This document shows, piece by piece, positions 43,377 through 49,888 of a stretch of DNA of 64,000 nt. The stretch covers positions 62,001 to 126,000 of the forward strand of contig NZ_JNAW01000001.1 of the NCBI RefSeq assembly GCF_000760215.1. The letters run 5' to 3'. This stretch comes from Prochlorococcus sp. MIT 0603. GTDB taxonomy: Bacteria > Cyanobacteriota > Cyanobacteriia > PCC-6307 > Cyanobiaceae. Below the pieces are notes generated by a model. It was not told the origin of the DNA, did not search any database, and saw only the letters and a list, made by a program, of their open reading frames with translations. Numbering within the stretch: position 1 is the first letter of the stretch; every line of letters starts with the position of its first letter. Position numbers and translations under genes: made by a program.

Positions 43377-44318
43377 TTAGAAATCTCTAGGCCCATTATA
43401 GCCACTTATGTTAGCTAATTCATCAAGAGATTTTACACCTGATTGTATCTCTCCATTGATTTCCCATGAGGGGAAGGCTTCAATTCCTTTTCTTTTACAT
43501 AAATCTGTTTTGCTGTTGACCCCGTCAATAGCGCATTCAACTGATTTAAGATTATCTGATGCTTCATTTCCAAACATTTCCATCTGATCATGGCAATGAG
43601 AGCACCAATATGCTTTGTATAGAATTATATTTTTCTTGTTTAAATACTGTGCTAATTGAATTGAAGATTTTGAGCTTTTATTGTTGATTATAGGAGCCTC
43701 TCCTTGATTTAAAATTGGAGATTGAGCTTTACTTGGATCCACTGACGATGTCCATATTAATCCTCCTAATAAAATAACTATAGTAACAATTAAACCTCTA
43801 AAAAATAATTCTCTACGGTCTTCCCAACCTCCTCCAATTATTGTTAAGATAAAAATAAAACTGGATATTACAGCTGAAAGAATACAGAAAAAACAAAAAG
43901 CTTTTATTTTTATGATCATTATTCCCATCAATATAAAACTGAATATGGCCATAGAATTTGATATAAGAAATAATCCCCACCATGCTTTTCTAGTGACTTC
44001 TAGCTTGCTTGTAGATATCCAAGGCAGAAAAGGAATTGTCGCTAGAAGTAATACGCTTAGATAACAAATAAAACCAATAAAAGATAGTGGAATATCTGAC
44101 CCATTAATTTGAAAGACTGTACCCCAAGGGCTATTGAGAACTTTGTCGCAACCGCCTGTTCCCCCAGGACAAGAAAGAGTGCTAATCCAACCCCATCTAT
44201 GGAGAGTGATAGAACCTGTATCAATAATTCCTATGGTTGCCAAGACTCCTATAAGAGTCCGAGCAATCTTGGAGCCTGGATCCTGTCTTCTACGACTTTT
44301 TATGCGAGATGTCCCCAT
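43377..44318 (-). CDS. VKOR-thioredoxin fusion oxidoreductase
   Basis: The 313-residue membrane protein forms disulfides in exported or lumenal proteins. The VKOR part has Cys50 and Cys57 in a loop, and the redox pair FCFFC (Cys142 and Cys145) at the end of a span. A thioredoxin-like domain follows with YWCSHCHD (Cys239 and Cys242). This fused form is typical of cyanobacteria (LTO1-type in plants) and would combine the quinone-linked oxidase with its own partner. It is divergent from rimO. Confidence 0.92.
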   Translation of the reverse strand: MGTSRIKSRRRQDPGSKIARTLIGVLATIGIIDTGSITLHRWGWISTLSCPGGTGGCDKVLNSPWGTVFQINGSDIPLSFIGFICYLSVLLLATIPFLPWISTSKLEVTRKAWWGLFLISNSMAIFSFILMGIMIIKIKAFCFFCILSAVISSFIFILTIIGGGWEDRRELFFRGLIVTIVILLGGLIWTSSVDPSKAQSPILNQGEAPIINNKSSKSSIQLAQYLNKKNIILYKAYWCSHCHDQMEMFGNEASDNLKSVECAIDGVNSKTDLCKRKGIEAFPSWEINGEIQSGVKSLDELANISGYNGPRDF

Positions 44319-47100: not shown

Positions 47101-48261
47101 TTAATGCTTAAAGGGAAGTTCATTATTTGATGCAATTATTGATTCTTTCATTAGTTGATTGGCTTCTGGTAATAATGAGTTCATTATACTATCTAATCTT
47201 TTGTCATACCACCTATGTAGACTAAATCTTTGAGAAGCCTGGAAACCTCTCCTGAATTTATGATTCCCTCCTGCGCCTGGATCAAATCTTTTGATACCTT
47301 TTTCTATTGCCCATGAAATAGGAGAGTAGTAGCAAAGCTCAAAATGAAGATTCTGAATCTCTTCTTTGCATCCCCAATACCTTCCCCATAATATTGTCCA
47401 ATCAGTTATACATAGAGACATTGCAATAGGCTTCTTAGGATCATCTTTATAAGCATTGAATAATACTACTTTGCTTTTTAAATCGTTATCGGATAATTCT
47501 TCAAAGAATTTGCTTGTTAAATATTTACTTCCCCATTCCCCCCACTTTAAACAATGATTCGCGTAAAAGTTGTGCATAATCCTCATCGTTTTTAAATCAA
47601 TTTCTTTCCCATTCAAAACGGATATTTTAATATTATTATTTTTTATCGATTTTCTTTCTCTCTTAATATTTCTTCTTTGGTTGGAGTTGAACCTGGCTAG
47701 GTAATCATCAAAACTTTTTTCTCCTATTGATTTCCACTCGGTTTGAGTATTTATCCAACAAGACCACTCTGCTACTTCCCCATACTCCATCCATCGTTGG
47801 TCTACATATAGAAAGTTGCAGCTTAAGATTCCGTTTTTCTCTGCAAATTTATCTATATTTTCCATAATGATTTTAGTGATTTCTTTTTTATCTTTGTCAT
47901 CTGCAATGAAAAATCTATAACCTTCTATAGGACTTAATGGGCTCATACCTATTAGCTTGGGATAATATTTCAAGCCAAGTTGGGCCGATAACCTTACAAT
48001 CGACTGGTCAAAAATAAATTCTCCATAGCTGTGATTTTTTAAATAAAGGGGTGCTAAAGCTATTAATTTACCTTTTTCCCAGAGTGTTAAATGTAATGGA
48101 ATCCACCCATATTTTGCTGAGATGCTATCAGATTTTTCTAATGCATGAAGCCATTTCCATTGATAAAAAGGAATTATGTCTTTACCTAAAATACCATCCC
48201 ATTGTTGTTCTGAAACTTCTTCAATTGAGTGATGCCAGGATGGAGTTATTAGTGATTTCAA
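47101..48261 (-). CDS. FemAB-like acyltransferase (GNAT fold)
   Basis: The 386-residue protein has the COG3146/DUF482 build: a GNAT-like core with YLARFNSNQRRNIKRERK, RYWGCKEEIQNLHFELCYY and FDPGAGGNHKFRRGF. The family is related to FemAB peptidoglycan amino-acid transferases, but the substrate is not known. The start overlaps the RibD-like gene end by four bases, so both are probably translated together. Confidence 0.85.
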   Translation of the reverse strand: MKSLITPSWHHSIEEVSEQQWDGILGKDIIPFYQWKWLHALEKSDSISAKYGWIPLHLTLWEKGKLIALAPLYLKNHSYGEFIFDQSIVRLSAQLGLKYYPKLIGMSPLSPIEGYRFFIADDKDKKEITKIIMENIDKFAEKNGILSCNFLYVDQRWMEYGEVAEWSCWINTQTEWKSIGEKSFDDYLARFNSNQRRNIKRERKSIKNNNIKISVLNGKEIDLKTMRIMHNFYANHCLKWGEWGSKYLTSKFFEELSDNDLKSKVVLFNAYKDDPKKPIAMSLCITDWTILWGRYWGCKEEIQNLHFELCYYSPISWAIEKGIKRFDPGAGGNHKFRRGFQASQRFSLHRWYDKRLDSIMNSLLPEANQLMKESIIASNNELPFKH

Positions 48262-48929
48262 AATCTATTTCTTATGTATGAAAGCATGACTTCATTTGCT
48301 CCTAGATCCTTTATGTCTTTTAATTTCCATGCTTCAGCTTGTGTTAATTGCACAGGTAAGTTATTTATTGCTGTATGGGTCCATGTGTATTTACCAGCAA
48401 GAATTTTAGGTGAAAATGTTAGCTGTAATTCATCAATCCTATCCTCTAATAATAAAGATGAAATTAGTTTCATTCCACCTAGTAAAACTATTTTTGAAAT
48501 ACCTTCATTATAGATTTTATTCAAAGTTTGCGTCCACTTTTCTTCCATAATTAAATGCCGATCAAAACCTGATTGTATTAATCTGTGATTTTTGTTGGGA
48601 GTTAATATCCATTTGGATATTGGTTGTTTAAAGAAAGCCCAATCTTCAGAAAATGCTGCTTTTTGGCTGACTATTATAGAAATTGGTTGCGAAGAACGTT
48701 TCTCATGACCCCTTTGATTGATTAATTTTTGATTGTGAATCAAGCATGTACTTTCATGTGCGTTTAGGGTCCCACTTCCCATTAACGTCGCATCACTCCA
48801 GCTTAAGGCCTTTTCTAAAGCTTCTCTATCCCCCTTGCCTCCTATATTGGCTTTGCCGCCTGAGGAAAGAGCAATCCTTCCGTCTAAGCTCATTGCTAGT
48901 ACTAGACGAACTGTAGGCAAGTAGAGCAA
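48258..48929 (-). CDS. RibD-C (dihydrofolate-reductase-like) reductase
   Basis: The 223-residue protein has the RibD C-terminal fold: VRLVLAMSLDGRIA at the start, then a GSGTLNAH segment and KIVLLGGMKLISSLL. It lacks the deaminase half of bacterial RibD. Such stand-alone reductases may act in riboflavin or another pterin-like pathway. It lies between the PTPS-like gene upstream and the FemAB-like gene downstream. Confidence 0.85.
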   Translation of the reverse strand: MLYLPTVRLVLAMSLDGRIALSSGGKANIGGKGDREALEKALSWSDATLMGSGTLNAHESTCLIHNQKLINQRGHEKRSSQPISIIVSQKAAFSEDWAFFKQPISKWILTPNKNHRLIQSGFDRHLIMEEKWTQTLNKIYNEGISKIVLLGGMKLISSLLLEDRIDELQLTFSPKILAGKYTWTHTAINNLPVQLTQAEAWKLKDIKDLGANEVMLSYIRNRF

Positions 48930-48932
48930 TCT

Positions 48933-49835
48933 TTAAATAGAAGTATCTTTCTTAATCAAGTTACTTGAGTCAGAATAAATCTCTGCAGCATTGTTCGGGC
49001 TTTCTTGTAGACGAACTTTATGAAGGCTTGCACCGATTTCTTGAATTGGATATTTTAATTTATCTGATATATGAAGAGCAATATTTTCTGCTGTAGGAAC
49101 ACAATTGGAGAAGTGTTTGATGTCTTTATTTAAGAAAGTATGATCAAAAGGCTCTACAACTAAATCTTCAACTAATTGTTGAAGTGATCCAAGATCACAA
49201 ATCATTCCTGTTCTAGAATTAATATTTCCTTTTACAGTTATTTCAACAAGATAGTTATGACCATGACCATTGGTTCTCGCACATTTCCCATATATTGCTT
49301 CATTTTCCGCTTGAGATAGCTCTTCCCTTGCCAATCTATGGGCTGCCGCAAAGTGACTTTTAATTGTTATGTAAGCTTCCATATTATTGCCTAAATAATC
49401 GGCCCAGAGATTTTGATTTTCATATAATCTTAGCGATTTTAGTGGTATGTCAGATTCTAACCTGGACCATATCACACGTGTTAAAGCCTCTGTTGTAGGT
49501 AGGCAGCCGTTAGCTTTGGATATGTCAAATTCTGGCCATGTTTCATTAAGGAATCGAAAGTCCAGTTGATTAGTGACTTTCTCTTTAATTGCGTGCTTTA
49601 TTTCTGAAAGATTTAAAACCATTCCATCTGCATTTAATGTTCCTTCCATTGAGACAATTAATTCGTAATTGTGACCATGGCCAGGAGCGATTGCACATGC
49701 ACCAAAGTGTTTTGAATTATCATCAGTTGATAACTCTGGCAGCCAATATCGATGACTTGCACTAAATAATGCTCGCCTTGTGATCACACAGGTCCGTCCT
49801 TGCCCGTGTTTGTGCTCAGATGTGATTGTATTCAT
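48933..49835 (-). CDS. tandem 6-pyruvoyl-tetrahydropterin synthase/QueD protein
   Basis: The chain (about 300 residues) holds two PTPS/QueD domains. Domain one has SASHRYW, HFGACAIAPGHGHNYEL and YENQN; domain two has AAAHRLA, YGKCARTNGHGHNYLVEI and LQESPNN. Both keep the zinc histidines (AHR/SHR and GHGHN), a Cys a few residues before, and the C-terminal Glu. The product could be a pterin or a queuosine intermediate. The start is ATG 49835 (MNTITSEHK); an upstream ATG at 49859 is possible. It is divergent from aroK and heads a four-gene minus run. Confidence 0.9.
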   Translation of the reverse strand: MNTITSEHKHGQGRTCVITRRALFSASHRYWLPELSTDDNSKHFGACAIAPGHGHNYELIVSMEGTLNADGMVLNLSEIKHAIKEKVTNQLDFRFLNETWPEFDISKANGCLPTTEALTRVIWSRLESDIPLKSLRLYENQNLWADYLGNNMEAYITIKSHFAAAHRLAREELSQAENEAIYGKCARTNGHGHNYLVEITVKGNINSRTGMICDLGSLQQLVEDLVVEPFDHTFLNKDIKHFSNCVPTAENIALHISDKLKYPIQEIGASLHKVRLQESPNNAAEIYSDSSNLIKKDTSI

Positions 49836-49888
49836 AGTATTTTCAATCACTGGCACCATTTTAATTTGTTCTACGTTTTTTTGTTTGT

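Follow-up and report, generated by a model that had tools for sequence, protein, structure and literature searches.

A Prochlorococcus dual-domain PTPS-II with one complete active-site set and a degenerate N-terminal domain

A 'dual domain' PTPS-II was reportedly described by Kong et al. in 2006 (FEBS Lett 580:4900) as the enzyme of Synechococcus PCC 7942. According to PMC5041015, the PTPS-II of this organism has PTPS activity in vitro and its PTPS-I is dispensable for biopterin; the same paper assigns the signature CxxxxxHGH to PTPS-II (biopterin), CxxxHGH to PTPS-I (QueD) and ExxHGH to PTPS-III. PTPS assembles as a dimer of trimers whose pterin sites are common to three monomers (PMC4790348), and the title of Burgisser 1995, as listed among the references of PMC2229834, terms its catalytic triad 'intersubunit'. 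Bimodular QueF resembles the protein described here in its tandem T-folds, with the catalytic Cys retained by the C-terminal module alone, but it catalyzes another reaction and its site lies between two modules that belong to a single chain (PMC5372742).

We analyzed a stretch of 64,000 nucleotides from Prochlorococcus sp. MIT 0603 (the window), which belongs to an assembly of 1.75 Mb in 7 contigs. The gene of interest was delimited from its open reading frame, Pfam matches, orthologue starts and residue positions, and its parts are as follows.

48933..49859, minus strand: bimodular PTPS-II (bPTPS-II) gene.
49392..49799, minus strand (Pfam match C1:111392-111784): N-terminal PTPS domain, residues 21-156, degenerate, with zinc His and Cys kept and the catalytic His replaced by Phe101.
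48975..49385, minus strand (Pfam match C1:110975-111373): C-terminal PTPS domain, residues 159-295, with all tested catalytic residues present.
49557..49562, minus strand: D100-F101 codons, in the place of the catalytic Asp-His pair by alignment to solved PTPS.
49140..49145, minus strand: codons of the intact Asp239-His240 pair, positioned by alignment.

The open reading frame encodes 308 amino acids in a single frame. Its whole protein matches PF01242 with 203.2 bits, and the two PF01242 stretches scored apart reach 118.8 and 88.2 bits against a cut-off of 22.4 bits, far beyond chance. The tandem PTPS protein proposed in a preliminary description of this DNA is thus upheld. Translation probably starts at Met9 (49833-49835), close to where three fully aligned orthologues (L005, L007 and L012) begin; the gene would then span 48933-49835 and encode 300 amino acids.

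A search of the phylum covered 292 genomes, of which 139 are in the window's class, and the fused gene was found in 128 of the 139. Proteins from 126 of these 128 genomes were read (117 bimodular and 9 trimodular, the trimodular ones of G064 and G245 being left out), and the domains of all the cyanobacterial fused proteins retrieved were aligned to solved mammalian PTPS for residue counts. There is nearly no linker between the domains, as 27 residues separate the C-terminal Glu of domain 1 from the first zinc His of domain 2 in 114 of the 117 bimodular proteins.

Both window domains carry the PTPS-II signature CxxxxxHGH (C55...H61/H63 and C193...H199/H201). The QueD signature CxxxHGH is in neither of them, five residues lying between Cys and the zinc HGH, and neither has the PTPS-III signature ExxHGH, with Ala58 and Thr196 at the Glu position. 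Cys-x5 precedes the zinc HGH in 117/117 bimodular second domains. The PF01242 score above the curated cut-off and the full set of zinc His, Cys, Asp-His and Glu in domain 2 are likewise those of PTPS-II. The NCBIfam QueD model TIGR03367 gives 123.7 bits against a cut-off of 89.25 over the whole protein, a score that adds up two domains. The solved structures nearest to domain 2 are human and C. elegans PTPS and 1b66/1gtq; it aligns end to end with the animal enzymes (3i2b, human; 2g64, C. elegans) at 34-38% identity and shares their catalytic residues, although these enzymes are single-domain hexamers and window domain 1 lacks the catalytic His. By its sequence, the gene is a conserved cyanobacterial dual-domain PTPS-II, an enzyme already known. 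It shares with the bPTPS-II of Synechococcus PCC 7942 the two PTPS domains, the PTPS-II type, the cyanobacterial host and a second PTPS homologue in the genome, and no tested feature separates the two. As the two-domain enzyme is known and widespread, the degenerate domain is the interesting part.

Domain 2 has the full set of H174, C193, H199, H201, D239, H240, E258 and E286. Domain 1 keeps H36, C55, H61, H63, D100, E124 and E147, and has Phe101 where the catalytic His is expected. These roles were assigned by alignment to solved mammalian PTPS, and also by what we take to be the PTPS numbering. The zinc histidines (H36/H61/H63 and H174/H199/H201), the Cys (C55 and C193) and the C-terminal Glu (E147 and E286) are present in both domains, as had been claimed. 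The further claim of two complete active sites fails at the catalytic Asp-His pair, which is D239-H240 in domain 2 and D100-F101 in domain 1. Because Phe101 replaces the catalytic His, the window protein is read as having one complete active-site set, not two.

The same loss was found in 126/126 fused cyanobacterial proteins, as the first domain retains the catalytic His in 0/117 bimodular and 0/9 trimodular proteins. The residue at its place in the bimodular proteins is F (78), Y (31), N (4), G (3) or C (1). Other residues of these 117 first domains are kept to varying extents. The PT(T/A)E motif Glu is present in all 117; 114 have the full trio of zinc His, 114 retain the C-terminal Glu, 101 have the Asp and 79 the Cys. 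In the trimodular first domains the Cys is gone in 7/9. The second domain retains each of the eight positions in 117/117. At the level of residues, the degenerate first domain is clade-wide, occurring in every cyanobacterial fused protein read. No mention of the N-domain His loss was found in the literature searched, which did not extend to the full text of Kong 2006.

From domain content, residue loss and conservation, gene context and co-occurrence, we regard it as likely that the protein is a dual-domain PTPS-II with catalysis on the C-terminal domain and a degenerate N-terminal partner. It would act after FolE and convert dihydroneopterin triphosphate to 6-pyruvoyl-tetrahydropterin, in line with the activity reported for the Synechococcus PCC 7942 enzyme. 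The product would feed tetrahydrobiopterin-type pterins, which are glycosylated in the cyanobacteria studied. Catalysis would be carried out by the C-terminal zinc, Cys193 and Asp239-His240, across a domain-domain interface. The N-terminal domain, which would be unable to supply the catalytic His, may complete the ring as a degenerate partner and may bind zinc or pterin.

However, zinc histidines kept in 114/117 bimodular N domains exceed what a dead spacer would need. The N domain could instead run a reaction of its own that is independent of the His, such as side-chain isomerization or hydroxymethylpterin formation. The retained C-terminal Glu (114/117) and PT(T/A)E Glu (117/117) are consistent with such a reaction, as is the 6-hydroxymethylpterin carried by cyanopterin (PMC3546692). 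We nevertheless hold it to be improbable, as the Cys is gone in 38/117 bimodular N domains, the zinc set is broken in 9/9 trimodular ones, and the Glu of PTPS-III (ExxHGH) is absent from the window protein.

The arrangement of the domains was considered with an AlphaFold model of one chain (pLDDT 91.2, pTM 0.85). Over domain 2 the model matches single PTPS chains, with Z of 19.6 to 3i2b. Over both domains it matches urate oxidases (Z up to 12.8, 222 residues, rmsd 4.2) and GTP cyclohydrolase IB (Z 11.9), tandem T-folds with domains side by side as in the predicted model, although their sequence identity is 4-12% and their chemistry differs. Because of the match across both domains, the N domain is predicted to lie beside the C domain, as in urate oxidase. 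This predicted placement poorly fits a ring made of C domains alone, which counts against catalysis confined to the C-terminal domain.

N and C domains could thus alternate in a heterotypic ring as in urate oxidase, with a composite site that takes the zinc and Cys from N and the Asp-His from C, so that both domains would be needed. Besides the structural alignments, this arrangement would agree with the Cys and all zinc His kept in the window N domain, with the zinc His of 114/117 bimodular N domains, and with four acidobacterial gene pairs (L161, L165, L167 and L171) whose losses are complementary. On the other hand, the N-domain Cys is gone in 38/117 bimodular and 7/9 trimodular proteins and the zinc set is broken in 3/117 and 9/9, and bimodular proteins with either loss would be left with no complete site. 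In an alternating ring, a complete triad arises only where N gives Cys, in at most 79/117 proteins. Moreover, the single-chain model may mimic a subunit contact. We therefore consider the heterotypic ring possible but rather unlikely. Because the residue losses across the clade leave a C-domain ring fitting 117/117 proteins, C-C contacts are favored, and we lean weakly toward the C-domain ring. A literature search on the residue names for the assembly returned no match.

The gene context was compared next to the PTPS gene and elsewhere in the genome.

48258..48929, minus strand: RibD_C-like reductase (PF01872), 3 bases after the PTPS gene.
G000:C2:152999-153706 (= L141:4503-5210, plus strand): PRK07454-type SDR of the window genome, candidate pyruvoyl-pterin or sepiapterin reductase.

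A RibD-like reductase had been noted directly downstream, and a PF01872 protein does lie there after a 3-base gap; it is probably co-transcribed with PTPS. The hint drawn from it toward a pterin pathway is weak, since the gene is conserved no more than unrelated neighbors and is kept without PTPS. It adjoins PTPS in 36/36 loci of the window's family, where shikimate kinase (36 loci) and FemAB (37) are equally conserved. Outside the family it is within the retrieved stretch in 1/94 loci (L083, 2.2 kb downstream); in G157 it is 3.8 kb downstream of PTPS by coordinates. When matches of at least 50 bits are counted as present, 121 class genomes have both genes, 7 PTPS only, 8 the RibD-like gene only and 3 neither (p 0.03, kinship ignored), and 8/11 class genomes without PTPS keep the RibD-like gene. 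As a candidate for the pathway reductase it is disfavored, as its co-occurrence (p 0.03, versus 7e-8 for the SDR) is not PTPS-specific. Other neighbors of PTPS in parts of the class, among them a gene that we take to be DnaJ-like (23 loci), gave no pathway clue. Elsewhere in the window, 43377-44318 on the minus strand encodes a membrane protein that ends in a CxxC-type redox stretch, presumably resembling a VKOR-thioredoxin fusion.

The SDR supports a pterin role better than the RibD-like neighbor does. PRK07454 scores above its cut-off in 126/292 phylum genomes, all within the window's class. Among the 139 class genomes, 123 have both SDR and PTPS, 5 PTPS only (G033, G045, G135, G051 and G159), 3 SDR only (G024, G195 and G211) and 8 neither (Fisher p 7e-8, kinship ignored). 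The eight double losses are spread over five families (f4, f6, f7, f14 and f29), and f4, f6 and f7 also have relatives with both genes. In 82 of the 90 SDR-bearing genomes outside the window's family, the gene immediately downstream of the SDR is folE; for the remaining 8, folE is not adjacent in 4 and its row is not listed for 4. Of two loci read within the family, SDR and folE are adjacent in L139 and not adjacent in the window's own genome, which has FolE and where the SDR (L141) stands beside what we assume to be an accA-like gene. An SDR also comes immediately after split PTPS genes in L054 and L055. The best NCBIfam match of these two is PRK07454, with 219.4 and 208.8 bits against a cut-off of 234, making them the best sub-cut-off matches to the model. 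A run of PTPS-PTPS-folE-SDR on one strand is seen in L154. With PTPS-II motifs in both domains and a folE-linked SDR tracking the PTPS gene, the pterin-pathway proposal gains support. Side-chain reduction, the next step, would most likely be carried out by the PRK07454-type SDR rather than the RibD-like neighbor, although SDR families are broad and the SDRs linked to split PTPS genes score below the PRK07454 cut-off.

The preliminary description had also proposed two specificities, pterin and queuosine, and a check for other QueD/PTPS genes. The check found a solo PTPS-like gene in the window genome.

L003:1459-1932 (G000:C2), plus strand: solo PTPS-like gene L003, with Cys-x3-HGY in place of HGH.

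The nearest NCBIfam family of L003 is QueD, at 42.4 bits against a cut-off of 89.25, and its best PHROGs family is the phage QueD-like PHROG 2389, which the fused protein matches too. Three PTPS matches and QueC are found in each of the 34 genomes of the window's family with a completeness of 90% or more. Because of these QueD-nearest matches and the family-wide counts, L003 appears the likelier QueD of the window genome, if uncertainly. The PTPS gene does not cluster with queC/queE in the window genome, where QueC and QueE are side by side on another contig (L134) and QueF is also present. Two specificities in the fused protein are not borne out, given the missing catalytic His of domain 1, the lack of QueD spacing in either domain, and a separate solo PTPS-like gene that accompanies QueE, QueC and QueF.

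Even so, the complete site could also serve queuosine, by yielding 6-carboxy-tetrahydropterin or letting others make it. QueE, QueC and QueF in the window genome would accommodate this side role. In f7, full QueC was found in 31/31 genomes, yet 9/17 bimodular and 1/11 trimodular genomes have no PTPS beyond the fused one (the 3 without a fused gene each have one solo PTPS); fused PTPS with QueC and no other PTPS in 10/28 f7 genomes makes a second job in queuosine possible, against a purely pterin enzyme. The middle domain of trimodular proteins has the QueD-type Cys-x3-HGH in 9/9, and the whole-protein score lies above the QueD cut-off, though by adding two domains. Against these points stand the Cys-x5 spacing of both window domains, the separate candidate in the window genome with the three PTPS matches and QueC in the 34 family genomes, and the solo PTPS also kept in 10/11 trimodular genomes. 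We judge a queuosine side role unlikely and retain PTPS-II catalysis on the C-terminal domain as the main function. For f7 genomes without other PTPS, either a QueD has gone unrecognized or the fused enzyme helps. Full QueC and a fused PTPS with no other PTPS match occur in G030, G042, G068, G091, G125, G174, G199, G251, G284 and G278.

The fused gene also has variants. Eleven f7 genomes encode a three-domain PTPS of about 430-440 amino acids. In the nine proteins read (L059-L064 and L131-L133), none of the eight residues is missing from domains 2 and 3, and domain 1 lacks the catalytic His in 9/9 and at least one zinc His in 9/9. The middle domain has lost two residues to give Cys-x3-HGH, and domain 3 has Cys-x5-HGH in 9/9. 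Three f2 genomes (G002, G066 and G207) have, besides the fused gene, an extra solo C-type PTPS (e.g. L067:3393-3893, plus strand) 1.4 kb from a PF01227 (folE) match. In two f34 genomes (G041, a Sericytochromatia MAG with the L144 contig, which is the same contig as L055; and G021), the halves are separate adjacent genes, of which the first already has D-F and the second is complete, followed by an SDR.

When named genomes were scanned with the f34 first genes, 54 loci were obtained from many phyla, with FolE-like ORFs in 26 and SDR-like ORFs in 10. At least two PTPS domains are present in 33/54. Leaving out L191, whose first match looks spurious, and L188, whose first domain is cut by a contig end, 31 pairs were counted: 15 with two complete members, 12 with one complete and one degenerate (L187 and L144 being cyanobacterial or Sericytochromatia), and the 4 acidobacterial ones, in which the catalytic Cys is lost in one gene and the His in the other. 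Nitrospira-type fused PTPS (L166, L179 and L192) have a degenerate second domain, the mirror of cyanobacteria, although the second domains of L179 and L192 are partial. A degenerate N domain is not phylum-wide, since two fused proteins of Vampirovibrio-like MAGs (L159 and L189) have both sites intact.

A FastTree tree of the domains had weak support. AU tests allow the cyanobacterial N and C domains to group together, as expected for local duplication (p-AU 0.52). They also allow the N domain to join its Sericytochromatia counterpart (0.88), the C domain to do likewise (0.78), and the N domain to group with all the first genes (0.79). Tentatively, and with a little less than even confidence, we propose that PTPS-II in pairs, whether as adjacent genes or fused, is a general bacterial design. 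Half of the intersubunit triad would be lost repeatedly from one partner, so that rings would contain live and dead interfaces. Cyanobacteria would have fixed a degenerate N domain, some f7 members would have added a QueD-spaced middle domain, and the partner SDR would be the cyanobacterial pyruvoyl-pterin or sepiapterin reductase.

How the QueD step is supplied is a question posed by the QueC-bearing genomes in which the fused protein is the sole PTPS match. For the division of labor in tandem T-fold enzymes, the loss of one catalytic half throughout the clade offers a clean, testable case.
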